From Salvelinus alpinus (Eukaryota; Chordata; Actinopteri; Salmoniformes; Salmonidae): DNA of 64,000 nt. The stretch covers positions 89,448,651-89,512,650 of the forward strand of contig NC_092091.1 in the NCBI RefSeq assembly GCF_045679555.1. Direction: 5' to 3'. The notes under the pieces were generated by a model, which was not told where the DNA came from, did no database searches, and saw nothing but the letters and a program-made list of their open reading frames with translations. The translations under genes and the position numbers were made by a program. Positions 10,366 to 63,742 of the stretch are shown here, piece after piece (position 1 is the first letter of the stretch; every line of letters begins with the position of its first letter).

Positions 10366-10396
<31 letters not shown>

Positions 10397-25516: not shown

Positions 25517-25758
25517 TAGTAACTAAAGAGCACACACAGACAACATGCACACGACGGGGATGTGTTCGCTCATCAGCGCTAGTTTCCTTACCATGAGCAG
25601 AAATTATACTTGATAACTGAAGATTAAAACTATCCTTAAAATATGTTTTGTAGTTTGTAGATTTACAAAAATATATTTTTTAGCTGTTTATCTCTGGGTT
25701 GACACGGAGTTGGCTTTGAATTATACAGATTTATTCCAGGGCTTCTACTTGCCGGTCC

Positions 25759-39781: not shown

Positions 39782-40016
39782 TGTAACGGATGTGAAATGG
39801 CTAGCTAGTTAGCGGGTACGCTCTACTAGCATTTCAATCAGTTACGTCACTTGCTCTGATACTTAAGTAGGGTTTCCCCTTGCTCTGCAAGGGCTGCGGC
39901 TTTTGTGGAGCGATGGGTAACGACGCTTCGTGGGTGTCAGTTGTTGATGTGTGCAGAGGGTCCCTGGTTCGCGCCCGTGTCGGGGCGAGGGGACGGTTTA
40001 AAGATATACTGTTACA
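39782..40016. mobile_element. 235-bp element, copy 5
   Basis: Same junctions. It shares two substitutions with copy 6 ('tacgctctac' and 'ctgatactta') that copies 1-4 lack. Confidence 0.85.
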
Positions 40017-41356
40017 TCAAGAGGATGGAGACGGAGGAAGACTCTGAGTTCCATGTCAAGAGGATGGAGACGGAGGAAGACTCTGAGTTCCATGTCAAGA
40101 GGAAGGAGATGGAGGAAGACTCTGAGTTCCATGTCAAGAGGATGGAGACAGAGGAAGACTCTGAGTTCCATGTCAAGAGGATGGAGACGGAGGAAGACTG
40201 AGTTCCATGTCAAGAGGGTGGAGACGGAGGAAGACTCTGAGTTCCATGCCAAGAGGATGGAGACGGAGGAAGACTCTGAGTTCCATGTCAAGAGGATGGA
40301 GACGGAGGAAGACTCTGAGTTCCATGTCAAGAGGATGGAGACGGAGGAAGACTCTGAGTTCCATGTCAAGAGGATGGAGACGGAGGAAGACTCTTTGAGT
40401 TCCATGTCAAGAGGATGGAGACGGAGGAAGACTCTTTGAGTTCCATGTCAAGAGGAAGGAGACGGAGGAAGACTCTGAGTTCCATGTCAAGAGGATGGAG
40501 ACGGAGGAAGACTCTTTGAGTTCCATGTCAAGAGGATGGAGACGGAGGAAGACTCTTTGAGTTCCATGTCAAGAGGATGGAGACGGAGGAAGACTCTGAG
40601 TTCCATGTCAAGAGGATGGAGATGGAGGAAGACTCTGAGTTCCATGTCAAGAGGATGGAGACGGAGGAAGACTCTGAGTTCCATGTCAAGAGGATGGAGA
40701 CGGAGGAAGACTCTTTGAGTTCCATGTCAAGAAGATGGAGACGGAGGAAGACGTTGAGTTCCATGTCAAGAGGATGGAGATGGAGGAAGACTCTGAGTTC
40801 CATGTCAAGAGGATGGAGACGGAGGAAGACTCTGAGTTCCATGTCAAGAGGATGGAGATGGAGGAAGACTCTGAGTTCCATGTCAAGAGGATGGAGACGG
40901 AGGAAGACTCTGAGTTCCATGTCAAGAGGATGGAGACGGAGGAAGACTCTGAGTTCCATGTCAAGAGGATGGAGACGGAGGAAGACTCTTTGAGTTCCAT
41001 GTCAAGAGGATGGAGACGGAGGAAGACTTTGAGTTCCATGTCAAGAGGATGGAGACGGAGGAAGACTTTGAGTTCCATGTCAAGAGGATGGAGACGGAGG
41101 AAGACTCTGAGTTCCATGTCAAGAGGATGGAGACGGAGGAAGACTCTGAGTTCCATGTCAAGAGGATGGAGACGGAGGAAGACTCTGAGTTCCATGTCAA
41201 GAGGATGGAGACGGAGGAAGACTCTGAGTTCCATGTCAAGAGGATGGAGACAGAGGAAGACTCTGAGTTCCATGTCAAGAGGATGGAGACGGAGGAAGAC
41301 TTTGAGTTCCATGTCAAGAGGATGGAGACGGAGGAAGACTTTGAGTTCCATGTCAA

Positions 41357-41591
41357 TGTAACGGATGTGAAATGGCTAGCTAGTTAGCGGGTACGCTCTA
41401 CTAGCATTTCAATCAGTTACGTCACTTGCTCTGATACTTAAGTAGGGTTTCCCCTTGCTCTGCAAGGGCTGCGGCTTTTGTGGAGCGATGGGTAACGACG
41501 CTTCGTGGGTGTCAGTTGTTGATGTGTGCAGAGGGTCCCTGGTTCGCGCCCGTGTCGGGGCGAGGGGACGGTTTAAAGATATACTGTTACA
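41357..41591. mobile_element. 235-bp element, copy 6
   Basis: Carries the same two diagnostic substitutions as copy 5, defining a second sub-lineage. Confidence 0.85.
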
Positions 41592-43164
41592 TCAAGAGGA
41601 TGGAGACGGAGGAAGACTCTGAGTTCCATGTCAAGAGGATGGAGACGGAGGAAGACTCTGAGTTCCATGTCAAGAGGAAGGAGACGGAGGAAGACTCTGA
41701 GTTCCATGTCAAGAGGATGGAGACAGAGGAAGACTCTGAGTTCCATGTCAAGAGGATGGAGACGGAGGAAGACTGAGTTCCATGTCAAGAGGGTGGAGAC
41801 GGAGGAAGACTCTGAGTTCCATGCCAAGAGGATGGAGACGGAGGAAGACTCTGAGTTCCATGTCAAGAGGATGGAGACGGAGGAAGACTCTGAGTTCCAT
41901 GTCAAGAGGATGGAGACGGAGGAAGACTCTGAGTTCCATGTCAAGAGGATGGAGACGGAGGAAGACTCTTTGAGTTCCATGTCAAGAGGATGGAGACGGA
42001 GGAAGACTCTTTGAGTTCCATGTCAAGAGGAAGGAGACGGAGGAAGACTCTGAGTTCCATGTCAAGAGGATGGAGACGGAGGAAGACTCTTTGAGTTCCA
42101 TGTCAAGAGGATGGAGACGGAGGAAGACTCTTTGAGTTCCATGTCAAGAGGATGGAGACGGAGGAAGACTCTGAGTTCCATGTCAAGAGGATGGAGATGG
42201 AGGAAGACTCTGAGTTCCATGTCAAGAGGATGGAGACGGAGGAAGACTCTGAGTTCCATGTCAAGAGGATGGAGACGGAGGAAGACTCTTTGAGTTCCAT
42301 GTCAAGAAGATGGAGACGGAGGAAGACGTTGAGTTCCATGTCAAGAGGATGGAGATGGAGGAAGACTCTGAGTTCCATGTCAAGAGGATGGAGACGGAGG
42401 AAGACTCTGAGTTCCATGTCAAGAGGATGGAGATGGAGGAAGACTCTGAGTTCCATGTCAAGAGGATGGAGACGGAGGAAGACTCTGAGTTCCATGTCAA
42501 GAGGATGGAGACGGAGGAAGACTCTGAGTTCCATGTCAAGAGGATGGAGACGGAGGAAGACTCTTTGAGTTCCATGTCAAGAGGATGGAGACGGAGGAAG
42601 ACTCTTTGAGTTCCATGTCAAGAGGATGGAGACGGAGGAAGACTTTGAGTTCCATGTCAAGAGGATGGAGATGGAGGAAGACTCTGAGTTCCATGTCAAG
42701 AGGATGGAGACGGAGGAAGACTCTTTGAGTTCCATGCCAAGAGGATGGAGACGGAGGAAGACTCTGAGTTCCATGTCAAGAGGATGGAGACGGAGGAAGA
42801 CTCTGAGTTCCATGTCAAGAGGATGGAGACGGAGGAAGACTCTGAGTTCCATGTCAAGAGGATGGAGACGGAGGAAGACTCTGAGTTCCATGTCAAGAGG
42901 ATGGAGACGGAGGAAGACTCTGAGTTCCATGTCAAGAGGATGGAGACGGAGGAAGACTCTGAGTTCCATGTCAAGAGGATGGAGACGGAGGAAGACTCTG
43001 AGTTCCATGTCAAGAGGATGGAGACGGAGGAAGACTCTGAGTTCCATGTCAAGAGGAAGGAGACGGAGGAAGACTCTGAGTTCCTTGTCAAGAGGATGGA
43101 GACGGAGGAAGACGTTGAGCAACTAGAGAAGCAGCTCCAAAGTGTAGATGCACAGAATCTGATG

Positions 43165-43761: not shown

Positions 43762-43778
43762 GGGCCTGTTGCACAAAA
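43762..43778 (+). repeat. Harbinger left terminal inverted repeat
   Basis: 17 bp, perfectly complementary to 48207-48223. Confidence 0.9.
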
Positions 43779-43985
43779 GTAGAATTAAGACATCCGGGAT
43801 AAATGACTCAGCTGAGCTCAATGAAGCCAAAACATGTGCGTCCAGGCTTAATTGGTTGCACAAAGACCAAGCCAGGATGAGCAGACACGGATTCATTAAG
43901 CCAGGTGAAACAAATCCTGGATAGGTGCGCGCTCACGGCTCACTCAAATAGACCCCGCCACAGATCACAGATTAACTGATTTACC

Positions 43986-44404
43986 ATGGCAACTAGAGCC
44001 GCGTACTTTTCCCCGTCGGAAGCACAAATCCTCATGGAGGCATACGAGGAGGTAAAAGATATAATTAAGAAGAAAGGCAACACCGCCACAGTGATAAAGC
44101 AAAGAGAAAAAGCGTGGCAAAGTATTGCAGACCGCCTGAATGCGTAAGTAGTGCACAATTACACACTCACCGCTCCGCTGAAACATCACAATTACAATTC
44201 AAATATTTAATTCACATCTCCAAAAATGCAGTTGTACTGTAATTATGAAACGGTTAAATTTTTAATTGAAATGCACTGCAGATATGAGTGAAATTGTGTA
44301 AAGTAACTCCATCACACTGTATAAAGCTATGATACATTTTTTGATATTTTTACTGAAAACAAGACAAAAATACCAAGTAATTTTTTGCAGTGTGACTCCA
44401 TTAA

Positions 44405-44444
<40 letters not shown>

Positions 44445-45584
44445 TAAACATGAACGGGCCAAAACGGACATGGCAGCAGGTCAAAATCAAATACAAGAAC
44501 ATTCTGCAGAATGGTATGGTCCCTGACTAATATTTAACAAAGCACAAGCATATATTGTACCCAGAAGGTGCCTGCTCACACATTGTCTGTACTGTTTTAG
44601 CAGTGAAAAAGAATACCCACAGACAAGGCACGGGTGGTGGGTCACCAAAGGCTGACCTTACCCCAGCAGAGGACATGGCCTTGGAGCTAAATAAAGGCAG
44701 GCCCGTCTTAGAGGGGATCCCTGGGGGGAAAGAGACGAGCATAGGTTCCTCCCAAGATGCCACCCGCTTCATTCAAGGTATGTCCTTCCATCTCTACATG
44801 GGATACAACCACATTCATATTGAATCAATTTGGACTGTCTGACTTTGGTTTACCTATTGCCTTGCAGTGTCTGGCAGCACTGTGTTCCTGTTAGAGCCAC
44901 CAGCACAAGCACCAGACGATGCTGATCCAGTGAGTACTCCATCAAAGGCATACTGTAGGCCTGGCATGTCTTGTCTACTAGCTTCAATATGAATCCGATT
45001 AAATGTGATAGGGTGAAGGCCCCAGTGCAGCAGCAACAGCACATGATGGAGACGATGATGAGGAGGAGACCATCTCTCTGGATTCCAGAAGGCATGAGGT
45101 ATCATGTTAAGACTGTGAAAGTACTATTTACTCTACAATGGTGAGGAGTCCTCATCAAAATCAAAAAATCTAATTTCTTTTACAGGACCCAGATGCTATA
45201 CAGTGGGAAAACCAGCCTGGCAACATAGTGCGTATTAATAAAAGGACACCACATCCTGCCAAATTCCAGCTGCGCTAATTGTATTGTGTTCACAGAGCTC
45301 ACAAGCTATCAGAAAGTTGTATGGCAACCACCTCCGGCGCCAAATAGAACTGGCAGACATAGACATTCAGTACAAGAAGAAAAAGATGGAAAATCTTGCA
45401 CTGGAGTCCGAAATAAAAAAGAGGACAATTAGGAAACTGGACCTTGAAATAAAAAAACTTGAGAGGGAGGTGAGATATGCCTTCAATGTACACTGTATGC
45501 TAACTGTAACACAAATGTATTAATCATTATTTTTCTTTCCTCCCCCAGCTCCAAGAAGATGACACAGCTCAAAATAAAAATTAG
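43986..45584 (+). CDS. Harbinger Myb/SANT-like DNA-binding protein
   Basis: Eight exons: 43986-44143, 44443-44513, 44601-44777, 44868-44929, 45012-45098, 45186-45227, 45296-45469, 45549-45584. All join in frame to 268 aa ending in TAG. The N-terminus MATRAAYFSPSEAQILMEAY with EKAWQSIADRLNA and RTWQQVKIKYKNI is a Myb/SANT-like (NAIF1-type) domain, residues about 5-90, which in Harbinger elements binds the transposon ends and carries the nuclease into the nucleus. The middle is low-complexity and acidic (DGDDDEEET). The C-terminal 70 residues are highly charged and likely a coiled coil (ALESEIKKRTIRKLDLEIKK). The start was chosen as the first ATG with good family fit. A TG microsatellite forms the end of intron 1. 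Confidence 0.88.
44406..44440. repeat. TG microsatellite at intron acceptor
   Basis: (TG)n serves in place of a pyrimidine tract directly before the 'tag' acceptor of exon 2 of the Myb-like gene. Confidence 0.95.
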
Positions 45585-45804
45585 GTATATTCTCGTAAAG
45601 TCAAGTGAGCCATGACATATGAGCTCTTATTGTGAGCACACAGGACGGTGGCATCTTTCTAAGGTTTCTTTTATTTTCCCAGCAATCAGTACAACCAAGT
45701 CATCGTTATAAGGCATCGCCCTCTTTTGCCCACCCCCCCAGCACCAGGTGTGGCCACTAGCCTATATGAAGGCCCAAAATTGTGTGTTCCTTTCTGCTCT
45801 GACA

Positions 45805-47095
45805 ATGGCATGCCCATTCGTGCGAGATGTGGTGGATGAAGAAGCACTTGTGCTGAGGAGAGCCTTCAGGCGAGAAAGGGTCTTCAGGGACCGGTTGGAC
45901 CCACTGGCCTTCCCTGATGACCATCTATATGAAAGATACAGGTTTTCTGCAGATGGCATCAGGTATCTATGCAGACTACTGGGTCCCAGGATTAAGCACC
46001 GCACTGCACGGAGCCATGCACTGAGTGTGGAGCAAATGGTTTGTGTGGCCTTGCGCTTTTTTGCTAGTGGAGCCTTCCTGTACTCAGTGGGGGATGCAGA
46101 ACAGCTGAACAAGGCCACAATTTGCCGCACAATAAGGAGTGTGTGTCTGGCTATCAAAGCATTAGCAGATGTCTTCATCTCCTTCCCTGGCCACAGAAGA
46201 CTCTGTGACATCAAAGAGGAGTTCTATAGGATTGCAGGTAAGAGGATCTACAAATTACAGGACAACTGTTAACACATAGTAGGATACTCATTACTTTGTG
46301 TGACAGGTTTCCCCAATGTCATTGGTGCAGTGGACTGCACACACATAAGGATAAAAGCCCCCTCAGGTGCCCATGAGGCCGATTTTGTGAATAGGAAATC
46401 CTTTCACAGCATTAATGTTCAGGTGAACATAACTTTTTGATATTGTCCATTGACGAACACTCTGCATTGCCAGTGATGTGCATTGATTGGTGTAATATTC
46501 CTCATCTTATGATTTCAGATGGTCTGCAATGCTGACTGTGTGATCAGCAATGTTGTGGCAAAATGGCCTGGCTCAGTCCATGACTCCAGAATCTTTCGGG
46601 CCTCTGAAATCTATCAGTGCCTATCACAAGGTAAGCCACACAACCCCTATTTATAACCATCATGGCTGTGTCAAGAATATCACTGTGTTTATGAGGTAGT
46701 AATGATGAGATTTTGTGTTGACAGGTGAATTCTCTGGTGTGTTGCTGGGAGACAGGGGGTATGGCTGCCAGCCTTTTCTCCTGACACCTTTCACAGACCC
46801 CCAGGAAGCACAGCAGGCCTACAACCATGCCCATGCCAGGACCAGGGCCAGAGTTGAAATGACCTTTGGCCTCCTGAAGGCACGCTTTCACTGCCTTCAC
46901 AAATTAAGGGTCAGCCCTGTTAGGGCATGTGATATTACTGTGGCTTGTGCTGTCCTCCACAATGTGGCCTGCCTGAGGAAGGAGAGGGCCCCCAGAGTGC
47001 CACCAGCCATGGACTGGGACAATCCGGCAATCTTCCCTGATGACGACAGTGGTCGGCTGCTGAGGGACCAATATGTGTTGAATTATTTTAGTTAG
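45805..47095 (+). CDS. Harbinger transposase (HARBI1-like DDE nuclease)
   Basis: Four exons: 45805-46237, 46307-46422, 46519-46630, 46725-47095, giving 343 aa. Starts [19 protein letters not shown]. An upstream in-frame ATG at 45766 would add 13 residues, but MACPF fits the family better. Catalytic triad: Asp154 in GAVDCTH, Asp230 in LLGDRGY, Glu265 in RARVEMTFG, with 34 residues between the last two. A helix-turn-helix-like region ([20 protein letters not shown]) precedes the core. No frameshift or stop is seen, so the enzyme could be active. It lies 220 bp downstream of the Myb-like gene on the same strand. Confidence 0.92.
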
Positions 47096-48206
47096 TATGT
47101 GTGCTTTCAATTTTGGTTAAATATGTCCTGCGGTGGCAGAGGAATTTGGGTTTTTTTGGGTTCGTTTTTTGACGAATTTGGCCTCTTATGATGTTTGTGC
47201 GGTATACTGTGTGTAATACAAGGCTGCAGGGAGGCTACTGCATCCATTCATTTGTCTGTTCAGTTGATGTGTATGGATTTGTCCTGCATTTATTTTAGTG
47301 TGCAGACATGCAGGGTGTGTTATATACAGACCTTTGAATGTGTATGTATCATTTTGTATAATATGCTTGGATTCTGTGCTTTCCATCTTGTAGAGTCACT
47401 GTGACTTCAGTTTCGAAAGGAGCTGATGGTTTACCTGCTTTGTTTTGTCCTTATTCAATAAAGGAACATAATGTTACACATTGTGTTTTTATATTCATAT
47501 GGAATGTGTATTTGTTTATATGACAGAGTACTAGGGCCACACTGAAGAAAAAGGATAAAGTCATAAATTTATGAGGCTGGTTCTTTCTGCAGAAAAGCTA
47601 CATATTGTTTTTATAGTTTTGATACTTATGACAATGTGATACTTAATATTCTGGCACATCAGCATGTCTTTGTTTATGAAACCATACTGAAGTACAATTT
47701 CACGAAATGCCCCACATCTGTCATTTTAACAACTGTCCTCCTTTAAAACAACTGGTTACAATATTATGACTTGTGTTTTTTTCCCCTCTGTGGCCCTAAT
47801 ATTCTATCATTTTATATATAGCCTTATAGTCTATGGGAAACTGTAAATTATCTAATGATAGCAACATCATCTAAAAATAATTTTTTATCCAAAATCATTG
47901 AAATTAATGATCACAAACGTTTAAATAATAACAGTGGGTCTAGTTATATGTGATAACAATGTATAGTGAGCAGTGAAATAACTATTGGTTTCCATTTGTG
48001 GTGACTGCTGACTGACATTAGGGATGAGATTAAATAGATCCTGGAATTTAGCCTGGTCTGGAGCAGGCTAGCTCCACAGAATAAATCTCCATGGTAATTT
48101 ATACCATAACATATCCTCCTGCCCCCTATCCATCTTTAGTGCAACCGGATTACGGATCAATTGAGCCAGGATCACCAAGATATCCTGGCTTAATCCCTTA
48201 TCCTAG
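47096..48206. other. Harbinger 3' non-coding region
   Basis: AT-rich, no gene. A polyadenylation signal AATAAA lies at 47457-47462, about 360 bp after the transposase stop. Confidence 0.6.
47457..47462 (+). terminator. Candidate polyadenylation signal of the transposase gene
   Basis: AATAAA followed within about 20 bases by 'cataatgttacacattgtgt', a GT-rich stretch. Confidence 0.5.
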
Positions 48207-48223
48207 TTTTGTGCAACAGGCCC
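48207..48223 (-). repeat. Harbinger right terminal inverted repeat
   Basis: Exact inverse of 43762-43778. Confidence 0.9.
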
Positions 48224-48903: not shown

Positions 48904-49211
48904 CAGCACACCCCTAGTAGCTACTACTGTGTCTTGTTGTTGATGAAATAGTAGTCTACTGTTTCTCCTCCATGTCTGGGGGTCGTTGCCACCCTGTGGT
49001 CGATGGTGGAATCACATGTTACGGAGAGCAGGAAACAAGCGTGATGAAACTATTCCTACAATGTCTGGAACGCTACAAAACACCAGAAATAGTTGGTGTC
49101 ATTCGGTGGGCTGTGTGTGTACGAACGTGATTTCAGCATTTTGGTACATCGTCTACTTGTGTGTAATCAGACGGACATTTATACAAACAATGCAATGTAT
49201 AGAATTTCTAC

Positions 49212-49378
49212 CGTGTTGCATGATGGGAAAACAGTCGGACCGTGATATAATATAGTAAAACAAAGTGCATCGCTTTTCCACCGCTTTGTCCTCAACTGTA
49301 TTCATAAATGTCATTAAACCCTGGTCAATATGATGTGATATTATCAGTAGTAGAAGTGGTAACCGTGAGTCAAACACC
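49212..49378 (+). promoter_or_regulatory. U1 copy 1 DSE (Staf/ZNF143 site) and PSE
   Basis: Nt 49212-49229, read on the minus strand as 'ttcccatcatgcaacacg', matches the 18-base Staf/ZNF143 consensus at 17 positions and lies at -209, where the snRNA distal element belongs. A degenerate octamer 'atgcaatg' is just upstream. Nt 49358-49378, 'ggtaaccgtgagtcaaacac', lies at -63 to -43, the fixed position of the proximal element. No TATA box is present at -30, as expected for a Pol II snRNA gene. Confidence 0.8.
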
Positions 49379-49420
49379 TTTGTCCTGGAATGAGTCGCCC
49401 TCTACCAACGTGTACAACTC

Positions 49421-49584
49421 ATACTTACCTGGCAAGGGAGACACCGTGATCAAGAAGGCGGTTCACCCAGGGCGAGGCTCAGCCATTGCACTCCGGCTGT
49501 GCTGACCCCTGCGAATTTCTCAAATGTGGAAATCTCGATTGCATAATTTATGGTAGTGGGGGACTGCGTTCGCGCTCTCCCCTG
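49421..49584 (+). ncRNA. U1 small nuclear RNA, copy 1
   Basis: 164 nt, the exact length of vertebrate U1. It starts 'atacttacctg', the strand that pairs with 5' splice sites. The U1-70K loop reads 'gatcaagaagg', the U1A loop 'attgcactcc', the Sm site 'aatttatgg', and the 3' stem is 'actgcgttcgcgctctcccc' plus tg. A 3'-box-like 'gttaaaaataat' follows about 9 bases downstream. The full promoter set suggests an expressible gene. Confidence 0.96.
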
Positions 49585-49975
49585 ATCTTCATGTTAAAAA
49601 TAATCAATGAACACATTTATGCTGTTATGTTCTGACATTTAAACTACGAGTTCTCATGAGTATCGTGATGACATTTATTAACATTTCCATTTGCTTACTT
49701 ATCAGATGAATGCTTTTAGAATATAGGATCTATTTAAAAGCCAACTAAAGCCTCAGAGATACTTTTTGTCTTCTGAAAACCCCAATGTGTGTGATCTGTT
49801 ATTGTAGTACTGGTGATTATGCCTGTCGTGTCCTGATTATGTCAAGGAAAAGGCCTACTTGTGAATGGATCATTTTGCGCCCTCAGACGTCATCTGGATT
49901 GAGGTCTTTTATTTACTAGATAATTAAGTCATTTATAGGACAGTTTGTCATTTAAAACCACAATAAACAGGCTGC

Positions 49976-50095
49976 ATCACATCCGGCCGTGATTGGTAAT
50001 CCCATAGGGTGGCGCACAATTGGCCCAGCGTCGTCCGGGGTAGGCGGTCATTGTAAATAAGAATTTCTTCTTAACTGATTTGCCTAGTTAAATAT
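49976..50095. mobile_element. SINE-like dispersed repeat fragment in U1 unit
   Basis: Contains 'ggcgcacaattggcccagcg' and 'gaatttcttcttaactga', a common salmonid repeat. Orthologous, more truncated copies lie in the other units near 53390-53500, 56090-56190, 58785-58885 and 61295-61400, so the insertion predates the amplification. A separate copy is at 63340-63440. Confidence 0.65.
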
Positions 50096-50698
50096 ATACA
50101 GGTAAATAACAAAAAATAAAACAACAACAATAGATTACTGCTCATTGTAACATAATGATCGAAATTAGGAGGGAGAAATTTGTTTGAATGACTTGGATAA
50201 TCACATTAGCTTTGAACGTGTCCCTGAAGTTGAAATGTCCAGAATACAGATTTAGAACGTTAACTTGGTCTGCTTTGATTTCATATCGTCTGAAATGGAA
50301 CCGGTCTATATCACCGAGGCTCATCAACTTTGTATATTGTATCCAACTCTCATTTCGTTTTCAAACTTATTTTTGTGTCATTGTAAGTGTGGTTGTATTG
50401 TGTTTTAAATTGTCAAATAAATCGTTCTACCTAAGTGATCCTTAAGGTGGGGCGATGGCGTCATCAGCCACTTCACAGTCGAGAAATGAGAGTTGTATTG
50501 ACTATACAAAGTTAATGAGCCTCGGTGATATAGATGGATTTATTCATATTCTCAGCAGTCAGGTACCTATCCAGTTCACACCCAAGACAGCTGACAGAGG
50601 GTTTTGGTGTAACCACTGAGTTATCCAGGGGAGCCTGCAACATTTACTCTGGATCCAAATAAGATGGATTCTGTTGTTCCGAGATGCAGATCCATTCC

Positions 50699-51794
50699 AC
50701 AGATATTTCCCTGGTCAACCATTACCATGACAACAGACATTTCCCTGGTCAACCATTACCATGACAACAGACATTTCCCTGGTCAACCATTCCACAGACA
50801 TTTCCCTGGTCAACCATTACCATGACAACAGACATTTCCCTGGTCAACCATTACAATACCATAGACATTTCCCTGGTCAACCATTACAATACCATAGACA
50901 TTTCCCTGGTCAACCATTACCATTCCACAGACATTTCCCTGATCAACCATTACCACAGACATTTCCCTGGTCAACCATTACCATGCCGCAGACATTTCCC
51001 TGGTCAACCATTACCATACCACAGACATTTCCCTGGTCAACCATTACAATTCCACAGACATTTCCCTGGTCAACCATTACAATACCATAGACATTTCCAT
51101 GGTCAACCATTACCATACCACAGACATTTCCCTGGTCAACCATTACAATTCCACAGACATTTCCCTGGTCAACCATTACAATACCATAGACATTTCCCTG
51201 GTCAACCATTACCATACCACAGACATTTCCCTGGTCAACCATTACAATACCATAGACATTTCCCTGGTCAACCATTACCATACCACAGACATTTCCCTGG
51301 TCAACCATTACAATTCCACAGACATTTCCCTGGTCAACCATTACAATACCATAGACATTTCCATGGTCAACCATTACCATTCCACAGACATTTCCCTGGT
51401 CAACCATTACAATTCCACAGACATTTCCCTGGTCAACCATTACAATACCACAGACATTTCCCTGGTCAACCATTACCATACCACAGACATTTCCCTGGTC
51501 AACCATTACAATTCCACAGACATTTCCCTGGTCAACCATTACAATACCATAGACATTTCCATGGTCAACCATTACCATTCCACAGACATTTCCCTGGTCA
51601 ACCATTACCATTCCACAGACATTTCCCTGGTCATCCATTACCATACCACAGACATTTCCCTGGTCAACCATTACCATTCCACAGACATTTCCCTTGTCAA
51701 CCATTACCATTCCACAGACATTTCCCTTGTCAACCATTACCATGACAACAGATATTTCCCTGGTCAACCATGACCATTCCACAGACATTTCCCT
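50699..51794. repeat. 33-bp minisatellite, U1 unit 1
   Basis: About 33 copies around 'acagacatttccctggtcaa' and 'ccattacca', with small variants (attcc, atacc, caatacc). Open frames in it are artefacts. Confidence 0.95.
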
Positions 51795-52631
51795 GCATGC
51801 ATTAATACTTGTAACACTTACTGTTAAGAAAAACGTTTCTCCCCCGTCCTATAACCACAGATAGAACAATGTGCTCATTATTAACGTCTCTGTTACTGTA
51901 GCTACTAGAGGTGTGTCGAGTAGTCAGACAAAACGAGGATCGTAACTGATATGGGCAATTTTCTGGATACGATTATGATCTAAGTCTTTTTTGTAATTAT
52001 TCGTGATCGGAAAAAAACTTTTTTTTCGGGTGCCAGCAAGAATCTTGCTCATACCAGTCAGTCACAGAGTTTCTAAACCATACTGTCCTGTCTTTGAGTT
52101 AGGCATAAATAATAAATCACCTGGCTAGTTTCCGTGTCTGTAAAGAGGTAGGTTGATCCTGCTGCTCTGATTGGATAGAGTGAAGCTGTAGTTCTTCCTC
52201 CGCTGGCTTCATCATTTCATCCTCTCTCTTTTCCTGGCATGTTTCTGGTCTGATCATAGGATTATCATTTAGATTTCTGCTGCCTGCTACTATGATAAAT
52301 TACAAATACGAGTATGTCCATGTCAGCACACCCCTAGTAGCTACTAATGTGTCTTGTTGTTGATGAAGTAGTAGGCGACTGATTCTCCTCCATGTCTGGG
52401 GTCGTACGCCACCCTGTGGTCGATGGTGGAATCATATTTTAATGAGAGCAGAAAACAAGCGTGATGAAACTATTCCTACAATGTCTGGAACGCTACAAAA
52501 CACCAGAAATAGTTAGTGTCATTCGGTTGGCTGTGTGTGCACGAACGTGATTTCAGCATTTTGCTACATCGTCTACTTGTGTGTAATCAGACGGACATTA
52601 ATACAAACAATGCAATGTATAGATTTTCTAC

Positions 52632-52798
52632 CGTGTTGCATGATGGGAATACGGTCGGACCGTGATATAATATAGTAAAACAAAGTGCATCGCTTTTCCA
52701 CCGCTTTGTCCGCAACTGTATTCATAAATGTCATTAAACCTTGTTCGATATGATGTGGTATTATCAGAAGTAGAAGTGGTAACCGTGAGTCAAACATC
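52632..52798 (+). promoter_or_regulatory. U1 copy 2 DSE and PSE
   Basis: Staf-like site at 52632-52649 (-209) and PSE at 52778-52798 (-63 to -43), both unchanged from copy 1 in their core bases. Confidence 0.8.
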
Positions 52799-52840
52799 TT
52801 TGCCCTGGAATCACTCGCCCTCTACCAACGTGTACAACTC

Positions 52841-53004
52841 ATACTTACCTGGCAAGGGAGACACCGTGATCAAGAAGGCGGTTCACCCAGGGCGAGGCTC
52901 AGCCATTGCACTCCGGCTGTGCTGACCCCTGCGAATTTCTCAAATGTGGAAATCTCGATTGCATAATTTATGGTAGTGGGGGACTGCGTTCGCGCTCTCC
53001 CCTG
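52841..53004 (+). ncRNA. U1 small nuclear RNA, copy 2
   Basis: 164 nt, identical by eye to copy 1 over the whole RNA, including the splice-site-pairing 5' end and the Sm site. Confidence 0.96.
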
Positions 53005-54025
53005 ATCTTCATGTTAAAAATAAAATATCAACAGATTGAAACTGTTGTGAGTTTTTAACTCTTGAGTTCTAATGACTTTCCTATTGAGAAGGAGATTTGT
53101 CAACATTTCCATTTTCGTATCAGATGAATGGCTATATAGAATGTAGGCTCTATTTAAAAGGCAACCAAGGCCTCAGAGATACATTTTGTCTTCTGAAAAC
53201 CACAATGTGTGTGATCTGTTATTGTACCACTGGTGATTATGCCTGTCATGTCCTGATTATGTCAAGGAAAAGGCCTACTTGTGGATCATTTTGCGCCCTC
53301 AGACGTAATCTTGATTGATGTCTTTTATTTGCTAAATAATTAAATCATTTATAGGACAGTTTGTAATTCAAGGCCACAATAAACAGGCTGCATCACATCC
53401 GGTGTCCCATAGGGCGGCGCACAATTGGCCCAGCGTCGTCCGGGTTTGGCCGGGGTAGGCCAAATGTAAATGAGAATTTCTTCTTAACTGATTTGCAATA
53501 TTTATTGACAACAATAGATTACTGCTCATTGTAACATAATGAACCTGTTCCTAAAGTTGAAATGTCCAGAATACAGATTTAGAACTTTAACTAGGTCTGC
53601 TTTGATTTCATATCGTCTGAAATGGAACCGGTCTATATCACCGAGGCTCATCAACTTTGTATATTGTATCCAACACTCATTTCGTTATCAAACTTATTTT
53701 TGTGTCATTGTAAGTGTGGTTGTATTGTGTTTTGAATTGTCAAATAAATCGTTCTACCTAAGTGATCCTTAAGGTGGGGCGATGGCGTCATCAGCCACTT
53801 CACAGTCGAGAAATGAGAGTTGTATTGACTATACAAAGTTAATGAGCCTCGGTGATATAGATGTATTTATTCATATTCTCAGCAGTCAGGTACCTATCCA
53901 GTTCACACCCAAGACAGCTGACAGAGGGTTTTGGTGTAACCACTGAGTTATCCAGGGGAGCCTGCAACATTTACTCTGGATCCAAATAAGATGGATTCTG
54001 TTGTTCCAAGATGCAAATCCATTCC

Positions 54026-54488
54026 ACAGACATTTCCCTGGTCAACCATTACCATGACAACAGACATTTCCCTGGTCAAACATTACAATGCCACAGACAT
54101 TTCCCTGGTCAACCATTCCACAGACATTTTCCTGGTCAGCCATTACCATGACAACAGACATTTCCCTGGTCAACCATTACAATACCATAGACATTTCCCT
54201 GGTCAACCATTACAATTCCACAGCTATTTCCCTGGTCAACCATTACCATTCCACAGACATTTCCCTGGTCAACCATTACCACAGACATTTCCCTGGTCAA
54301 CCATTACCACGCCACAGACATTTCCCTGGTCAACCATTACCACAGACATTTCCCTGGTCAACCATTACAATGACCACAGACATTTCCCTGGTCAACCATT
54401 ACAATTCCACAGACATTTCCCTGGTCAACCATTACCATTCCACAGACATCTCCCTGTCAACCATTACCATGCCACAGACATTTCCCTG
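54026..54488. repeat. 33-bp minisatellite, U1 unit 2
   Basis: About 14 units of the same sequence family as in unit 1, with some shortened units lacking 'accattcc'. Confidence 0.95.
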
Positions 54489-55336
54489 CATGCATCAATA
54501 CTTGTAACACTTACTGTTAAGAAAAACGTTTCTCCCACGTCCTATTACCACAGATAGAACAATGTGTTCATTACTAACGTCTCTGTTACTGTAGCTACTA
54601 GAGGTGTGTGGAATAGTCAGACAAAACGAGGATCGTAACTGATATGGGCAATTTGCTGGATACGATTATGATCTAAGTCTTTTTTGTAATTATTCGTGAT
54701 CGGAAAAAAACTTTTTTTCGGGTGCCAGCAAGAATCTTTCTCATACCAGTCAGTCACAGAGTTTCTAAACCATACTGTCCTGTCTTTGAGTCAGTCATAA
54801 ATAATAAATCACCTGGCTAGTTTTCCTGTCTGTAAAGAGAAGGGCGGGCTGTAGGTTGATCCTGCTGCTCTGATTGGATAGAGTGAAGCTGGATTTCTTC
54901 CTCCGCTGGCTTCATCATTTCATCCTCTCTCTTTTCCTGGCATGGTCCTGGTCTGATCATAGGATCATCATTTAGAGTCCTGCTGCCTGCTACTGTGATA
55001 AATTACAAATACGAGTATGTCCATGTCAGCACACCGCTAGTAGCTACTAATGTGTCTTGTTGTTGATGAAGTAGTAGGCGACAGTTTCTCCTCCATATCT
55101 GGGGTTCGTTGCTTCCCTGTGGTCGATGGTGGAATCATATTTTACCGAGAGCAGAAAACAAGCGTGATGAAACTATTCCTACAATGTCTGGAACGCTACA
55201 AAACACCAGAAATAGTTGGTGTCATTCGGTTGGCTGTGTGTGCACGAACGTGATTTCAGCATTTTGGTACATCGCCTACTTGTGTGTAATCAGACGGACA
55301 TTTAGACAACAAAATCAATTTATATAGAATTTCTAC

Positions 55337-55503
55337 CGTGTTGCATGATGGGAGAACAGTCGGACAGTGATATAATATAGTAAAACAAAGTGCATCTCTT
55401 TTCCACCGCTTTGTCCGCAACCGTATTCATAAATGTCATTAAACCTTGTTCGATATGATGTGATATTATCAGTAGTAGAAGTGGTAACCGGGAGTCAAAC
55501 ACT
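55337..55503 (+). promoter_or_regulatory. U1 copy 3 DSE and PSE
   Basis: Staf-like site at 55337-55354 has one tolerated change (gggag). The PSE at 55483-55503 has a T-to-G change, 'aaccgggagtc', shared with copy 4. Spacing to the RNA start is the same as in copy 1. Confidence 0.75.
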
Positions 55504-55545
55504 TTTGTCCTGGAATCAGACCCTCTCTACCAACGTGTACAACTC

Positions 55546-55709
55546 ATACTTACCTGGCAAGGGAGACACCGTGATCAAGAAGGCGGTTCACCCAGGTCGA
55601 GGCTCAGCCATTGCACTCCGGCTGTGCTGACCCCTGCGAATTTCTCAAATGTGGAAATCTCGATTGCATAATTTATGGTAGTGGGGGACTGCGTTCGCGC
55701 TCTCCCCTG
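55546..55709 (+). ncRNA. U1 small nuclear RNA, copy 3
   Basis: 164 nt. Differs from copies 1, 2 and 5 only by G52T ('cccaggtcgagg'), near the base of stem-loop II. Confidence 0.95.
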
Positions 55710-56721
55710 ATCTTCATGTTAAAAATAATGTTTGAGCTGTTTTAAATTATTATGTCATGTGAGGTCTGATGATTTTCCTATTGAGAAGGAGATTTGTCAA
55801 CATTTCCATTTTCGTATCAGATGAATGGCTATATAGAATGTAGGCTCTATTTAAAAGCCAACCAAGGCCTCAGAGATACATTTTGTCTTCTGAAAACCAC
55901 AATGTGTGTGATCTGTTATTGTACCACTGGTGATTATGCCTGTCATGTCCTGATTATGTCAAGGAAAAGGCCTCCTTGTGGATCATTTTGCGCCCTCAGA
56001 CGTCATCTGGATTGAGGTCTTTTATTTGCTAGATAATTCAATCATTTATAGGACAGTTTGTAATTCAAGGCCACAATAAACAGGCTGCATCACATCCGGT
56101 GTCCCATAGCGCGGCGCACAATTGGCCCAGCGTCGTCCGGGTTTGGCCGGGGTAGGCCAAATGTAAATGAGAATTTCTTCTTAACTGATTTGCAATATTT
56201 ATTGACAACAATAGATTACTGCTCATTGTAACATAATGAACCTGTTCCTAAAGTTGAAATGTCCAGAATACAGATTTAGAACTTTAACTAGGTCTGCTTT
56301 GATTTCATATCGTCTGAAATGGAACCGGTCTATATCACCGAGGCTCATCAACTTTGTATATTGTATCCAACACTCATTTCGTTATCAAACTTATTTTTGT
56401 GTCATTGTAAGTGTGGTTGTATTGTGTTTTGAATTGTCAAATAAATCGTTCTACCTAAGTGATCCTTAAGGTGGGGCGATGGCGTCATCAGCCACTTCAC
56501 AGTCGAGAAATGAGAGTTGTATTGACTATACAAAGTTAATGAGCCTCGGTGATATAGATGTATTTATTCATATTCTCAGCAGTCAGGTACCTATCCAGTT
56601 CACACCCAAGACAGCTGACAGAGGTTTTTGGTGTAACCACTGAGTTATCCAGGGGAGCCTGCACATTTACTCTGGATCCAAATAAGATGGATTCTGTTGT
56701 TCCAAGATGCAAATCCATTCC

Positions 56722-57182
56722 ACAGACATTTCCCTGGTCAACCATTACCATGACAACAGACATTTCCCTGGTCAAACATTACAATGCCACAGACATTTCC
56801 CTGGTCAACCATTCCACAGACATTTTCCTGGTCAGCCATTACCATGACAACAGACATTTCCCTGGTCAACCATTACAATACCATAGACATTTCCCTGGTC
56901 AACCATTACAATTCCACAGCTATTTCCCTGGTCAACCATTACCATTCCACAGACATTTCCCTGGTCAACCATTACCACAGACATTTCCCTGGTCAACCAT
57001 TACCACGCCACAGACATTTCCCTGGTCAACCATTACCACAGACATTTCCCTGGTCAACCATTACAGTTCCACAGACATTTCCCTGGTCAACATTACAATT
57101 CCACAGACATTTCCCTGGTCAACCATTACCATTCCACAGACATCTCCCTGTCAACCATTACCATGCCACAGACATTTCCCTG
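56722..57182. repeat. 33-bp minisatellite, U1 unit 3
   Basis: About 14 units, almost the same variant order as in unit 2. Confidence 0.95.
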
Positions 57183-58028
57183 CATGCATCAATACTTGTA
57201 ACACTTACTGTTAAGAAAAACGTTTCTCCCACGTCCTATTACCACAGATAGAACAATGTGTTCATTACTAACGTCTCTGTTACTGTAGCTACTAGAGGTG
57301 TGTGGAATAGTCAGACAAAACGAGGATCGTAACTGATATGGGCAATTTGCTGGATACGATTATGATCTAAGTCTTTTTTGTAATTATTCGTGATCGGAAA
57401 AAAACTTTTTTTCGGGTGCCAGCAAGAATCTTTCTCATACCAGTCAGTCACAGAGTTTCTAAACCATACTGTCCTGTCTTTGAGTCAGTCATAAATAATA
57501 AATCACCTGGCTAGTTTTCCTGTCTGTAAAGAGAAGGGCGGGCTGTAGGTTGATCCTGCTGCTCTGATTGGATAGAGTGAAGCTGGATTTCTTCCTCCGC
57601 TGGCTTCATCATTTCATCCTCTCTCTTTTCCTGGCATGGTCCTGGTCTGATCATAGGATCATCATTTAGAGTCCTGCTGCCTGCTACTGTGATAAATTAC
57701 AAATACGAGTATGTCCATGTCAGCACACCGCTAGTAGCTACTAATGTGTCTTGTTGTTGATGAAGTAGTAGGCGACAGTTTCTCCTCCATATCTGGGGTT
57801 CGTTGCTTCCCTGTGGTCGATGGTGGAATCATATTTTACCGAGAGCAGAAAACAAGCGTGATGAAACTATTCCTACAATGTCTGGAACGCTACAAAACAC
57901 CAGAAATAGTTGGTGTCATTCGGTTGGCTGTGTGTGCACGAACGTGATTTCAGCATTTTGGTACGTCGCCTACTTGTGTGTAATCAGACGGACATTTATA
58001 CAAACAATGCAATGTATAGAATTTCTAC

Positions 58029-58195
58029 CGTGTTGCATGATGGGAAAACAGTCGGACAGTGATATAATATAGTAAAACAAAGTGCATCTCTTTTCCACCG
58101 CTTTGTCCGCAACCGTATTCATAAATGTCATTAAACCTTGTTCGATATGATGTGATATTATCAGTAGTAGAAGTGGTAACCGGGAGTCAAACACT
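58029..58195 (+). promoter_or_regulatory. U1 copy 4 DSE and PSE
   Basis: Staf-like site at 58029-58046 and PSE at 58175-58195, the latter with the same T-to-G change as copy 3. Confidence 0.75.
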
Positions 58196-58237
58196 TTTGT
58201 CCTGGAATCAGACCCTCTCTACCAACGTGTACAACTC

Positions 58238-58401
58238 ATACTTACCTGGCAAGGGAGACACCGTGATCAAGAAGGCGGTTCACCCAGGTCGAGGCTCAGC
58301 CATTGCACTCCGGCTGTGCTGACCCCTGCGAATTTCTCAAATGTGGAAATCTCGATTGCATAATTTATGGTAGTGGGGGACTGCGTTCGCGCTCTCCCCT
58401 G
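58238..58401 (+). ncRNA. U1 small nuclear RNA, copy 4
   Basis: 164 nt, identical by eye to copy 3, including G52T. Confidence 0.95.
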
Positions 58402-59416
58402 ATCTTCATGTTAAAAATAATGTTTGAGCTGTTTTAAATTATTATGTCATGTGAGGTCTGATGATTTTCCTATTGAGAAGGAGATTTGTCAACATTTCCA
58501 TTTTCGTATCAGATGAATGGCTATATAGAATGTAGGCTCTATTTAAAAGCCAACCAAGGCCTCAGAGATACATTTTGTCTTCTGAAAACCACAATGTGTG
58601 TGATCTGTTATTGTACCACTGGTGATTATGCCTGTCATGTCCTGATTATGTCAAGGAAAAGGCCTCCTTGTGGATCATTTTGCGCCCTCAGACGTCATCT
58701 GGATTGAGGTCTTTTATTTGCTAGATAATTCAATCATTTATAGGACAGTTTGTAATTCAAGGCCACAATAAACAGGCTGCATCACATCCGGTGTCCCATA
58801 GCGCGGCGCACAATTGGCCCAGCGTCGTCCGGGTTTGGCCGGGGTAGGCCAAATGTAAATGAGAATTTCTTCTTAACTGATTTGCAATATTTATTGACAA
58901 CAATAGATTACTGCTCATTGTAACATAATGAACCTGTTCCTAAAGTTGAAATGTCCAGAATACAGATTTAGAACTTTAACTAGGTCTGCTTTGATTTCAT
59001 ATCGTCTGAAATGGAACCGGTCTATATCACTGAGGCTCATCAACTTTGTATATTGTATCCAACTCTCATTTCGTTTTCAAACTTATTTTTGTGTCATTTT
59101 AAGTGTGGTTGTATTTGTGTTTTAAATGGTCAAAGAAAACGTTCTACCTAAGTGATCCTTAAGTTGGGGCGATGGCGTCATCGGCCACTTCACAGTCGAG
59201 AAATGAGAGTTGTATTGACTATACAAAGTTAATGAGCCTCGGTGATATAGGTGGATTTATTCATATTCTCAGCAGTCAGGTACCTATCCAGTTCACACCC
59301 AAGACAGCTGACAGAGGTTTTTGGTTTAACCACTGAGTTATCCAGGGGAGCCTGCAACATTTACTCTGGATCCAAATAAGATGGATTCTGTTGTTCCAAG
59401 ATGCAGATCCATGACA

Positions 59417-59690
59417 ACAGATATTTCCCTGGTCAACCATTACCATTCCACAGACATTTCCCTGGTCAAACATTACAATGGCACAGACATTTCCCTGGTC
59501 AACCATTCCACAGACATTTTCCTGGTCAGCCATTACCATGACAACAGACATTTCCCTGGTCAACCATTACCATTCCACAGACATTTCCCTGGTCAAACAT
59601 TACAATGGCACAGACATTTCCCTGGTCAACCATTACCATGCCACAGACATTTCCCTGGTCAACCATTACCATTCCACAGACATTTCCCTG
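59417..59690. repeat. 33-bp minisatellite, U1 unit 4
   Basis: About 8 units, with 'caaacattacaatgg' variants. Confidence 0.95.
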
Positions 59691-60540
59691 CATGCATCAA
59701 TACTTGCAACACTTACTGTTAAGAAAAACGTTTCTCCCACGTCCTATTACCACAGATAGAACAATGTGTTCATTATTAACGTCTCTGTTACTGTAGCTAC
59801 TAGAGGTGTGTGGAGTAGTCAGACAAAACGAGGATCGTAACTGATATGGGCAATTTTCTGGATACGATTATGATCTAAGTCTTTTTTGTAATTATTCGTG
59901 ATCGGAAAAAAACTTTTTTTCGGTTGCCAGCAAGAATCTTTCTCATACCAGTCAGTCACAGAGTTTCTAAACCATACTGTCCTGTCTTTGAGTCAGTCAT
60001 AAATAATAAATCACCTGGCTAGTTTCCCCTGTCTGTGAAGAGAAGGGCGGGCTGTAGGTTGATCCTGCTGCTCTGATTGGATAGAGTGAAGCTGAATTTC
60101 ATCCTCCGCTGGCTTCATCATTTCATCCTCTCTCTTTTCCTGGCATGTTTCTGGTCTGATCATAGGATCATCATTTAGAGTCCTGCTGCCTGCTACTATG
60201 ATAAATTACAAATACGAGTATGTCCATGTCAGCACACCCCTAGTAGCTACTAGTGTGTCTTGTTGTTGATGAAGTAGTAGGCGACTGTTTCTCCTCCATG
60301 TCTGAGGGTCGTTGCTTCCCTGTGGTCGATGGTGGAATCACATGTTACGGAGAGCAGAAAACAAGCGTGATGAAACTATTCCTACAACGTCTGGAACGCT
60401 ACAAAACACCAGAAATAGTTGGTGTCATTCGGTGGGCTGTGTGTGCACGAACGTGATTTCAGCATTTTGGTACGTCGCCTAATTGTGTGTAATCAGACAG
60501 ACATTTAGACAAAAAAAATCAATGTGTATAGAATTTCTAC

Positions 60541-60707
60541 CGTGTTGCATGATGGGAACATAGTCAGACAGTGTTATAATATAGTAAAACAAAGTGCATC
60601 GCTTTTCCACCGCTTTGTCCTCAACTGTATTCATAAATGTCATTAAACCCTGGTCGATATGATGTGATATTATCAGAAGTAGAAGTGGTAACCGTGAGTC
60701 AAACACC
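60541..60707 (+). promoter_or_regulatory. U1 copy 5 DSE and PSE
   Basis: Staf-like site at 60541-60558 and PSE at 60687-60707, both in the copy 1 form. Confidence 0.8.
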
Positions 60708-60749
60708 TTTGTCCTGGAATCAGACCCTCTCTACCAACGTGTACAACTC

Positions 60750-60913
60750 ATACTTACCTGGCAAGGGAGACACCGTGATCAAGAAGGCGGTTCACCCAGG
60801 GCGAGGCTCAGCCATTGCACTCCGGCTGTGCTGACCCCTGCGAATTTCTCAAATGTGGAAATCTCGATTGCATAATTTATGGTAGTGGGGGACTGCGTTC
60901 GCGCTCTCCCCTG
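60750..60913 (+). ncRNA. U1 small nuclear RNA, copy 5
   Basis: 164 nt, identical by eye to copies 1 and 2. Confidence 0.96.
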
Positions 60914-61926
60914 ATCTTCATGTTAAAAATAATGTTGGAGCTGTTTTAAATTGGTATGTCATGTGAGTTCTGATGATTTTCCTATTGAGAAGGAGATTTG
61001 TCAACATTTCCATTTTCGTATCAGATGAATGGCGATATAATATAGGATCTATTTAAAAGGCAACCAAGGCCTCAGAGATACATTTTGTCTTCTGAAAACC
61101 ACAATGTGTGTGATCTGTTATTGTACCACTGGTGATTATGCCTGTCATGTCCTGATTATGTCAAGGAAAAGGCCTACTTGTGGATCATTTTGCGCCCTCA
61201 GACGTAATCTGGATTGAGGTCTTTTATTTGCTAGATAATTAAATCATTTATAGGACAGTTTGTAATTCAAGGCCACAATAAACAGGCTGCATCACATCCG
61301 GGGTCCCATAGGGCGGCGCACAATTGGCCCAGCGTCGTCCGGGTTTGGCCGGGGTAGGCCAAATGTAAATGAGAATTTCTTCTTAACTGATTTGCAATAT
61401 TTATTGACAACAATTGATTACTGCTCATTGTAACATAATGAACCTGTTCCTAAAGTTGAAATGTCCAGAATACAGATTTAGAACGTTAACCTGGTCTGCT
61501 TTGATTTCATATCGTCTGAAATGGAACCGGTCTATATCACTGAGGCTCATCAACTTTGTATATTGTATCCAACACTCATTTCGTTTTCAAACTTATTTTT
61601 GTGTCATTTTAAGTGTGGTTGTATTTGTGTTTTAAATGGTCAAAGAAAACGTTCTACCTAAGTGATCCTTAAGTTGGGGCGATGGCGTCATCGGCCACTT
61701 CACAGTCGAGACATGAGAGTTGTATTGACTATACAAAGTTAATGAGCCTCGGTGATATAGATGTATTTATTCATCTTCTCAGCAGTCAGGTACCTATCCA
61801 GTTCACACCCAAGACAGCTGCCAGAGGGTTTTGGTGTAACCACTGAGTTATCCAGGGGAGCCTGCAACATTTACTCTGGATCCAAATAAGATGGATTCTG
61901 TTGTTCCAAGATGCAGATCCATGACA

Positions 61927-62104
61927 ACAGATATTTCCCTGGTCAACCATTACTATCAAATCAAATCAAGTTTATTTTATATAGCCCTTCGTACATCAGC
62001 TAATATCTCGAAGTGCTGTACAGAAACCCAGCCTAAAACCCCAAACAGGGGTGCCACAGACATTTCCCTGGTCAAACATTACCATGCCACAGACATTTCC
62101 CTGG
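61927..62104. repeat. 33-bp minisatellite, U1 unit 5, with inserted repeat
   Basis: Only a few minisatellite units remain, split by a 96-bp interspersed repeat at 61954-62049 containing 'atcaaatcaagtttatttta' and 'gaagtgctgtacagaaaccc', a very common salmonid sequence. Confidence 0.8.
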
Positions 62105-62317
62105 TCCATTTATTTCCTGATGAAGTCAGTCAAAACAGAGATGTCAGTGGAGTGGGTCTTTCTAAAACCAGACTGTAGTTCTGATAAGAGTATTCTTGTC
62201 AGTATATTCATCCATCTATTCATAAATGACTTTTTCCAGCACCTTAGACTGCACACTCAACATTGATACAGTTCTGTTTTGCTGCCCTTCTTGTGGATAG
62301 GGGTCACTCTAGCATTG
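62105..62317 (-). mobile_element. Non-LTR reverse transcriptase fragment
   Basis: The minus strand reads SELQSGFRKTHSTDISVLTD before a stop at 62117, matching the conserved 'QSGFR..HST' block of LINE reverse transcriptases. The fragment is short and degenerate. It forms the outer insertion; the sequence continues after the nested LINE at 63169. Confidence 0.6.
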
Positions 62318-62329
62318 GCCATATACAAC

Positions 62330-63156
62330 CAAGAAGAGTCGGTGAGGCACTTGCTCTGGGAGTGCAGAGCTGCCAGGGACCTGTGGAAGGAAGCAGGCCC
62401 CCTGATTACCCCGTGTCTGCCAGCAGGGGAGGACCTAACACCTCAGCTCGTGCTGTATGGGGTGGGCCGAAGGCCTATTCCATCGAAGGCCTTCACCAAG
62501 TTCTGGCCCACCCTCGCGTGCCTGAAGGAAGCACTGTGGTCCTCCCGTAACCTGCTGGTAGCTAAAAGTGTAGAGACCACCCCCCAGGCAGTGGCCATGG
62601 TAGCCACGGAAGCCCTGGGGTGGTACGGAAGGAACGGGGCCTCGACCCCGGGCGAAGGGTCCCCCACAACACCCTAGGTCCCGGCGGCCACGGCCTGACA
62701 GCGCTGCGGCACCTAGGGCGATGCGCCTAGGGGAGGGATCTCCTCTGGGCCCCGAAGGACGGAACAACGATTGATTCTGGAGAGCAGGAGGAGGCGAGCT
62801 TGATAAGGACTCACCCCGCTCCTGTACAAAGGACCCGAAGACAGCTTTTTAACAAAGTGGCTTTTTAACATGTTTTTCATATCTTAAGAATGTTTTACCT
62901 TGTTGAATCATTTGTACACATTTTAAATGGCCTTTACAGATTTGATGTTTTTTACAATGAAAAGTACTTTTATTCATGGTTGTTCTCATTGGTTTTAACA
63001 ACATGTACTTTTTAACAAATTTAAATGTAATTTTCAAATGCTGTGTTTTATGCCTTATTGACGTTTTTATGTGTATAAAATGATGTAAAAAGTATATGAG
63101 CTGTTTTTAAAGGAATTGTGACAATAAAACTTTTCCAAAATAAAAAATATATATTT
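62330..63156 (+). mobile_element. 5'-truncated LINE with 12-bp target duplication
   Basis: An 827-bp insertion flanked by perfect 'gccatatacaac' copies (62318-62329 and 63157-63168). It encodes the C-terminal end of a LINE polyprotein, including HLLWECRAARDLWKEAGPL, VLYGVGRRPIPSKAFTKFW and ETTPQAVAMVATEALGWY, stopping at 62677. An AT-rich 3' tail with AATAAA near 63122 follows. Insertion is by target-primed reverse transcription; the copy is not autonomous. Confidence 0.82.
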
Positions 63157-63742
63157 GCCATATACAACAAACCCCAGAAGGACATTATTGCGATTAGAAA
63201 CTGGTTACCAACTAAATTAGAACAGTAAAACTATATATTTTTGTCAATCTGCATTCAGGGATCGAAACACCCAGTCTATAATTCCTAATAGATCACCTGT
63301 CTGAAAAGTACGACAAACTATGAGTTGTAGTAGCCTATTCAATTGGCCCAGCGTTGTCCAGGTTTGGCCGGTGTAGGCCGTCATTGTAAATAATAATTTG
63401 TTGCCTAGTTAAATAAATCGGACTTGCCTAGTTAAATAAAGGTTAAATAAAGATAAATAAATAAAAACTCAGCTATGGAGGCCAAAACAACCACTCAGTC
63501 AAGCTATTTTTGACTGTGATTTCAGTAGGTGCATGTCGTATGCATCAATACGTGTAACACTTACTGTTAAGAAAAACGTTTCTCCCCCGTCCTATTACCA
63601 CAGATAGAACAATGTGTTCATTATTAACGTCTCTGTTACTGCAGCTACTAGAGGTGTGTGGAGTAGTCAGACAAAACGAGGATCGTAACTGATATGGGCA
63701 ATTTTCTGGAAACGATTATGATCCAAGTCTTTTTTGTAATTA

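Follow-up and report, generated by a model that had tools for sequence, protein, structure and literature searches.

The question raised by this locus is whether a tandem array of sequences for U1, a small nuclear RNA (snRNA) required for the splicing of messenger RNA, in Salvelinus alpinus consists of working genes or of pseudogenes. The array lies in a stretch of 64,000 nucleotides (C6:89448651-89512650, C6 being contig NC_092091.1), hereafter the window; the genome searched comprised 2.37 Gb in 928 contigs. An original prediction, made from the letters of the window, had described five full-length U1 genes of 164 nt on one strand, with complete RNA polymerase II (pol II) promoters. The whole window was scanned with cmscan and five matches to RF00003 (U1) were obtained at or above the gathering score, each 164 nt long and spanning model positions 1-166. 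Their scores (161.1-167.1 bits) were far above the cut-off of 69.5 bits. All five window genes are full-length members of the family, placed where they had been predicted, and none was scored as a low-scoring pseudogene. No Rfam family other than U1 was above threshold in the 64-kb window. Our preferred reading, to which we give a probability of roughly 0.85, is that the locus is a small tandem cluster of six pol II U1 genes, five of them in the window, expressed by the mechanism proposed below. Judged by its sequence, the cluster is genuine and probably working. The features of the array are:

48904..63742, + strand, tandem U1 units of the window (self-comparison with unit 4 as query)
49421..49584, + strand, U1 gene 1, 164 nt, RF00003 167.1 bits
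52841..53004, + strand, U1 gene 2, RF00003 167.1 bits, identical to gene 1
55546..55709, + strand, U1 gene 3, G52T variant, RF00003 161.1 bits
58238..58401, + strand, U1 gene 4, G52T variant, RF00003 161.1 bits, RNA identical to gene 3
60750..60913, + strand, U1 gene 5, RF00003 167.1 bits, identical to gene 1

Homology to unit 4 begins at 48904, 517 bp 5' of gene 1, and continues across the five units. Unit 5 is disrupted past 61956; a piece of the unit reappears at 63540-63742 and the remainder at 71583-72401, outside the window. The expectation that the array would run beyond the window was borne out by one intact gene, the sixth, which starts at window coordinate 72402 (C6:89521052). The array then stops: the last position homologous to the unit is 72589, about 24 bp 3' of the sixth U1 RNA, and no further U1 match was found after this gene up to C6:89550000. 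The array is interrupted by foreign sequence at 63743-71582 (outside the window from 64001). Its start at 63743 resembles what we take to be the end of a pogo/Tigger-like DNA transposon; an inverted end matching it was not found by a short search.

The U1 start-to-start steps are 3420, 2705, 2692 and 2512 bp, the unit lengths originally proposed. That such unequal lengths reflect unrelated units was considered and rejected. Each of the first four spacers carries a minisatellite of 33 bp:

50692..51795, + strand, 33-bp minisatellite of spacer 1, about 33.7 copies
54019..54488, + strand, 33-bp minisatellite of spacer 2, about 14.7 copies
56715..57182, + strand, 33-bp minisatellite of spacer 3, about 14.7 copies
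59417..59690, + strand, 33-bp minisatellite of spacer 4, about 8.5 copies

After removal of the minisatellite, the units measure 2316, 2235, 2224 and 2230 bp (for the last figure the minisatellite was counted from 59409, though the 33-bp row begins at 59417). Because these lengths are nearly equal, the differences in unit length are mainly due to a variable number of tandem repeats (VNTR).

The RNA regions are far more uniform than the sequence around them. Among the six genes, 1 of the 164 columns of the U1 RNA is variable, as compared with 98 of 546 columns in the downstream spacer of five genes (Fisher p 4e-11) and 67 of 492 in the 5' flank (-517..-1, minus the stretch of the proximal sequence element, PSE; p 3e-8); these p-values are nominal, columns not being independent across paralogues. 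Spacer divergence reaches 18% between genes 1 and 2, the RNA being unchanged. The end that pairs with the 5' splice site, loop I, loop II and the Sm site were intact in all 44 full-length U1 copies compared, window genes included (each aligned over 150 nt or more; three partial U1 matches and the loci L051-L054 were left out). A reading of the array as pseudogenes only was rejected, since the RNA stays constant while the spacers drift. Nor do the window genes resemble dispersed U1 pseudogenes, whose RNA is truncated or diverged and which are often promoterless; copies at C20 13.23 Mb and C24 4.03 Mb provide the contrast.

Each gene is preceded by the two elements of a pol II snRNA promoter, the PSE and a ZNF143/Staf-like site in the distal sequence element (DSE), and is followed by a 3'-box-like sequence:

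49358..49378, + strand, PSE of gene 1 (-63..-43)
52778..52798, + strand, PSE of gene 2
55483..55503, + strand, PSE of gene 3, T to G at the 5th base of ACCNTNA
58175..58195, + strand, PSE of gene 4, T to G as in gene 3
60687..60707, + strand, PSE of gene 5
49208..49229, + strand, ZNF143/Staf-like site (DSE) of gene 1 (-213..-192), exact pattern match
52628..52649, + strand, ZNF143/Staf-like site of gene 2, exact pattern match
55333..55354, + strand, ZNF143/Staf-like site of gene 3, one mismatch
58025..58046, + strand, ZNF143/Staf-like site of gene 4, exact pattern match
60537..60558, + strand, ZNF143/Staf-like site of gene 5, exact pattern match
49585..49604, + strand, 3'-box-like sequence containing GTTAAAAATAA, repeated from 53005, 55710, 58402 and 60914

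The PSE was found at -63..-43, as predicted, with ACC at -59 in 6/6 cluster genes, the sixth included. The Staf-like core TGCATGATGGGA lies at -204..-193 in all six, and the -209 position given for this site in the original prediction falls inside the longer motif at -213..-192. A TATA[AT] motif in -45..-15 was absent from 44/44 full-length U1 copies. The window genes thus have a PSE at fixed distance without a TATA box, with one unusual PSE base in genes 3 and 4, and a DSE with a ZNF143 motif. The 3'-box-like element reads GTTAAAAATAA after the window genes and GTTGAAAATAA after the sixth; compared by eye with the 3'-box consensus, it is a candidate 3' box.

The same layout recurs in other U1 clusters of the genome. 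Five clusters provided six promoter samples; in 6/6 the PSE has its ACC at -59, and the Staf-like core starts between -204 and -209, with two base changes at C6 9.18 Mb. Identity to the promoter of gene 1 (-230..-1) is 79% for C20 25.3 Mb, 70% and 69% for two arrays with a 1.66-kb step and 59% for C6 9.18 Mb, shuffled sequence giving about 41-45%. Compared with all the window promoters in this interval, the C6 9.18 Mb promoter reaches an identity of only 57-59%. For the promoter alignment, 43 of the 44 copies were used and one with <250 nt upstream was excluded.

From the observed sequence, spacing, conservation and copy context, we infer the following course of factor binding, transcription, processing and incorporation. 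Each U1 gene would be driven by a TATA-less promoter, in which ZNF143/Staf at the distal element (-213..-192) would assist SNAPc binding of the proximal element (ACC at -59). Pol II would produce a short transcript, which Integrator would cut at the 3' box, a few bases beyond the mature end. The RNA, in which the end that pairs with the 5' splice site, both loops (I and II) and the Sm site are intact, would then join the U1 small nuclear ribonucleoprotein (snRNP). Integrator processing and snRNP assembly are established for pol II snRNAs. Unequal exchange would have enlarged the array, units 3 and 4 being a putative recent duplicate that shares the stem II and PSE changes.

Several points weigh against the reading of six working genes. 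The foreign sequence disrupts unit 5 and the beginning of unit 6. The promoters, which had been called complete, do have a PSE and a Staf-like site; they lack an octamer (none with up to one mismatch in -320..-1 of the six cluster genes), and one PSE base has been lost from genes 3 and 4. The octamer is frequent in the DSE of such genes, not universal. Mean divergence within the cluster is 8.0% in the DSE stretch, 4.5% in the PSE stretch and 3.9% between them. Within the cluster neither element stands out clearly from its surroundings in conservation, which speaks against a simple claim of promoter constraint; such support as these putative promoters receive from sequence comparison derives from conservation between clusters. 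Gene conversion, too, could keep the RNAs alike even if the individual copies were not under selection. Finally, G52T breaks one stem II pair in the U1 model and the PSE motif ACCGTGA is changed to ACCGGGA in genes 3 and 4, whereas the remaining 42 of 44 copies all have the T. Because of these two changes, the 'five functional genes' of the window may be three genes plus two variants.

Genes 3 and 4 share one RNA sequence, which G52T alone sets apart from that of genes 1, 2 and 5. The alternative that comes closest to even odds is that both are decaying or near-silent members of an otherwise working cluster, the PSE change cutting SNAPc binding and the stem II change being tolerated drift. Both changes were seen in these genes only: the PSE T to G is found in 2/44 copies and an exact 58-nt pattern with T52 has 2 places genome-wide, in each case genes 3 and 4. 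Besides the pair flagged as broken by the U1 model, the predicted single-sequence fold is weakened by 1.7 kcal/mol. However, the remaining RNA is intact, with a model score of 161 bits, and a single PSE base need not silence a promoter. Units 3 and 4 are near-identical from about -2000 to +700, except in the DSE region, where differences are concentrated at 57999-58046; gene 4 there agrees with gene 2, and gene 3 (near 55310-55354) agrees in part with gene 5. By their sequence the two units look like a recent duplicate, and the DSE-region patch is conversion-like, resembling what a small conversion tract would leave.

The preferred reading of six pol II genes was then placed in the context of the other U1 copies. 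A search of the whole genome with a 38-nt U1 5' pattern, allowing up to 3 mismatches, gave 110 places, decayed copies included; a 22-nt Staf-like pattern, with at most 1 mismatch allowed, gave 140. The control (for U1, the pattern read backwards) gave 0 in both cases, so neither set of matches is due to chance. The genome therefore holds at least 110 U1 5' ends; locations are given for the 100 of 110 listed and, for the Staf-like places, the 100 of 140 listed. Exact 38-nt matches number seven: the six genes of this cluster and the place at C6:9183759. Arrays with a step of about 1.66 kb hold 81 of the 100 listed U1 5' ends (34 at C20 14.1-14.2 Mb, 25 on C138, 11 on C64, 8 on C15 and 3 on C9). 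The window array is a minor cluster, and the U1-like copies of the genome are mostly in larger arrays. In one unit examined from the bulk C20 array, the RNA was two bases off the window type. With C6 and C20 25.3 Mb set aside, 34 full-length copies remain in the comparison: 24 show 5-6 base differences from the window RNA, the others 2-8 or a different length. In C6 9.16-9.22 Mb, the window unit matched the U1 genes plus some 14-24 bases downstream, and one piece of 126 bases.

This two-tier organization suggests a possible refinement, not a contrary, of the preferred reading, which we advance tentatively and by analogy: the cluster would supply somatic or low-level housekeeping U1 and the arrays of about 1.66 kb (C20, C15, C9, C138, C64) the oocyte or embryo type, two promoter classes being used stage-specifically. 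It is consistent with six genes here as compared with 34 listed U1 5' ends at C20 14.1-14.2 Mb, with large-array promoters 67-70% identical and with RNAs differing by 2 to 8 bases, some in length. Xenopus embryonic U1 genes form large tandem arrays. Maternal-specific U1 genes, present in large numbers on zebrafish Chr4, are described in PMC11075544, and embryonic and adult U1 forms of mouse and Xenopus in PMC4291461. As in these zebrafish and Xenopus systems, many copies and distinct U1 types are present in one genome (same sources); the window cluster differs in belonging to a small, long-unit class. On the other side, the assignment of stages could be the reverse, and the bulk C20 unit differs from the window RNA at two bases only. 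A bolder version, in which the cluster would form a U1 class set apart in development, with a promoter and an RNA type of its own, and genes 3 and 4 a private U52 isoform whose altered PSE travels with it as a regulated unit, seems to us improbable. The cluster is a clean U1 set, distinguishable by sequence, beside far larger U1 arrays in the same fish genome. Bases 21, 22, 52, 100, 130 and 150 are diagnostic, and RNA data could use them to assign clusters to a tissue or stage. The window type has A21, C22, T100, A130 and T150, together with G52 or T52. Among the 100 listed U1 5' ends, C22 is confined to this cluster and C6:9183759, which carries C130.

Decayed copies show how far promoters can be relied on. 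The body of the C20:13.23 Mb copy has diverged past about 90 nt, and neither a PSE nor a Staf-like site was seen by eye in the 240 nt inspected. In the copies at C24:4.03 Mb and C17:0.088 Mb, promoter elements stand over a decayed U1 body. Since the C17 copy has a promoter over such a body, the promoter alone cannot separate genes from pseudogenes here. The original argument that constant promoter spacing and intact RNA favour genes over pseudogenes is supported by constant RNA beside drifting spacers, by the fixed promoter spacing and by the sixth gene beyond the window, although a promoter is insufficient by itself. That the whole cluster consists of non-functional relics, alike solely through gene conversion or recent duplication, is very unlikely: the promoter-bearing decayed U1 on C17 and C24 and the conversion-like patch between the promoters of genes 3 and 4 would fit it, but spacers diverge by up to 18% beside unchanged RNA and motif spacing is fixed.

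Some further details of these copies were recorded. On C17, a U1-type Staf-like site with one mismatch occurs near 88113 and also at 97102, 111476, 118622 and 125725 (among the places listed); in the single C17 copy examined the promoter looks intact and the U1 body is decayed. Copies at C6:9183759, 9187094 and 9190498 and at C20:25311999 carry A130C, which gives the Sm site AATTTCTGG. The C20:13229006 copy, for which no promoter was seen, likewise carries A130C, and such an RNA may once have been reverse-transcribed. A short internal duplication lies at C15:6643758 and 6644049, where a U1 copy cut off after its first 73 nt precedes promoter sequence and then a complete U1.

The cluster may share with vertebrate pol II U1 genes a 3'-box-like element (here judged by eye). 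RNA length, fold, PSE, ZNF143 site and absence of a TATA box are those of vertebrate pol II U1 genes (RF00003; human RNU1), the promoter anatomy being outlined in PMC3499247. Unlike these, it has no octamer within one mismatch and forms a small tandem cluster with long VNTR spacers. Multiple U1 clusters and pseudogene clusters are found in hake and cichlid, according to PMC4696792. Linkage of some U1 genes to U2 occurs in hake, whereas the window contains no snRNA family besides U1. PMC3706591 and PMC10361878 give 297 intact U1 genes for zebrafish and U1 copy numbers for Xenopus, respectively. Multiple or clustered U1 genes are already known from fish and frogs (PMC4696792, PMC11075544, PMC3706591, PMC10361878), and the window cluster is otherwise ordinary. 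No publication on a salmonid U1 array was found among those listed from the literature searched, most subscription journals being outside its scope. Dada-type transposons target U1 (PMC3706591); no clear case of such an insertion was seen by eye in three partial U1 copies.

Upstream of the array, a fish NLR-type gene is represented on the + strand at 10133-12457 by an open frame of 774 codons, whose domains are FISNA (fish-specific NACHT-associated), NACHT, NOD2 winged helix and NLRC4 HD2; the FISNA domain points to fish as the source of the DNA. A link between U1 and NLR genes as in zebrafish was considered and no case for it could be made: the largest FISNA group is on C1 and two matches are at C6 89.38-89.46 Mb, among the 150 listed (150 of 201 candidates were scored). 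An element at 43762-48223 has matching inverted ends GGGCCTGTTGCACAAAA, a Myb/SANT-like frame and DDE_Tnp_4 matches in two frames; we presume it to be PIF/Harbinger-like. Two very long minisatellites were also found, at 25756-30312 (45-bp unit, about 103 copies) and at 30741-43113 (39-bp unit, about 315 copies). Both units are divisible by three and both arrays have a strong GC skew.

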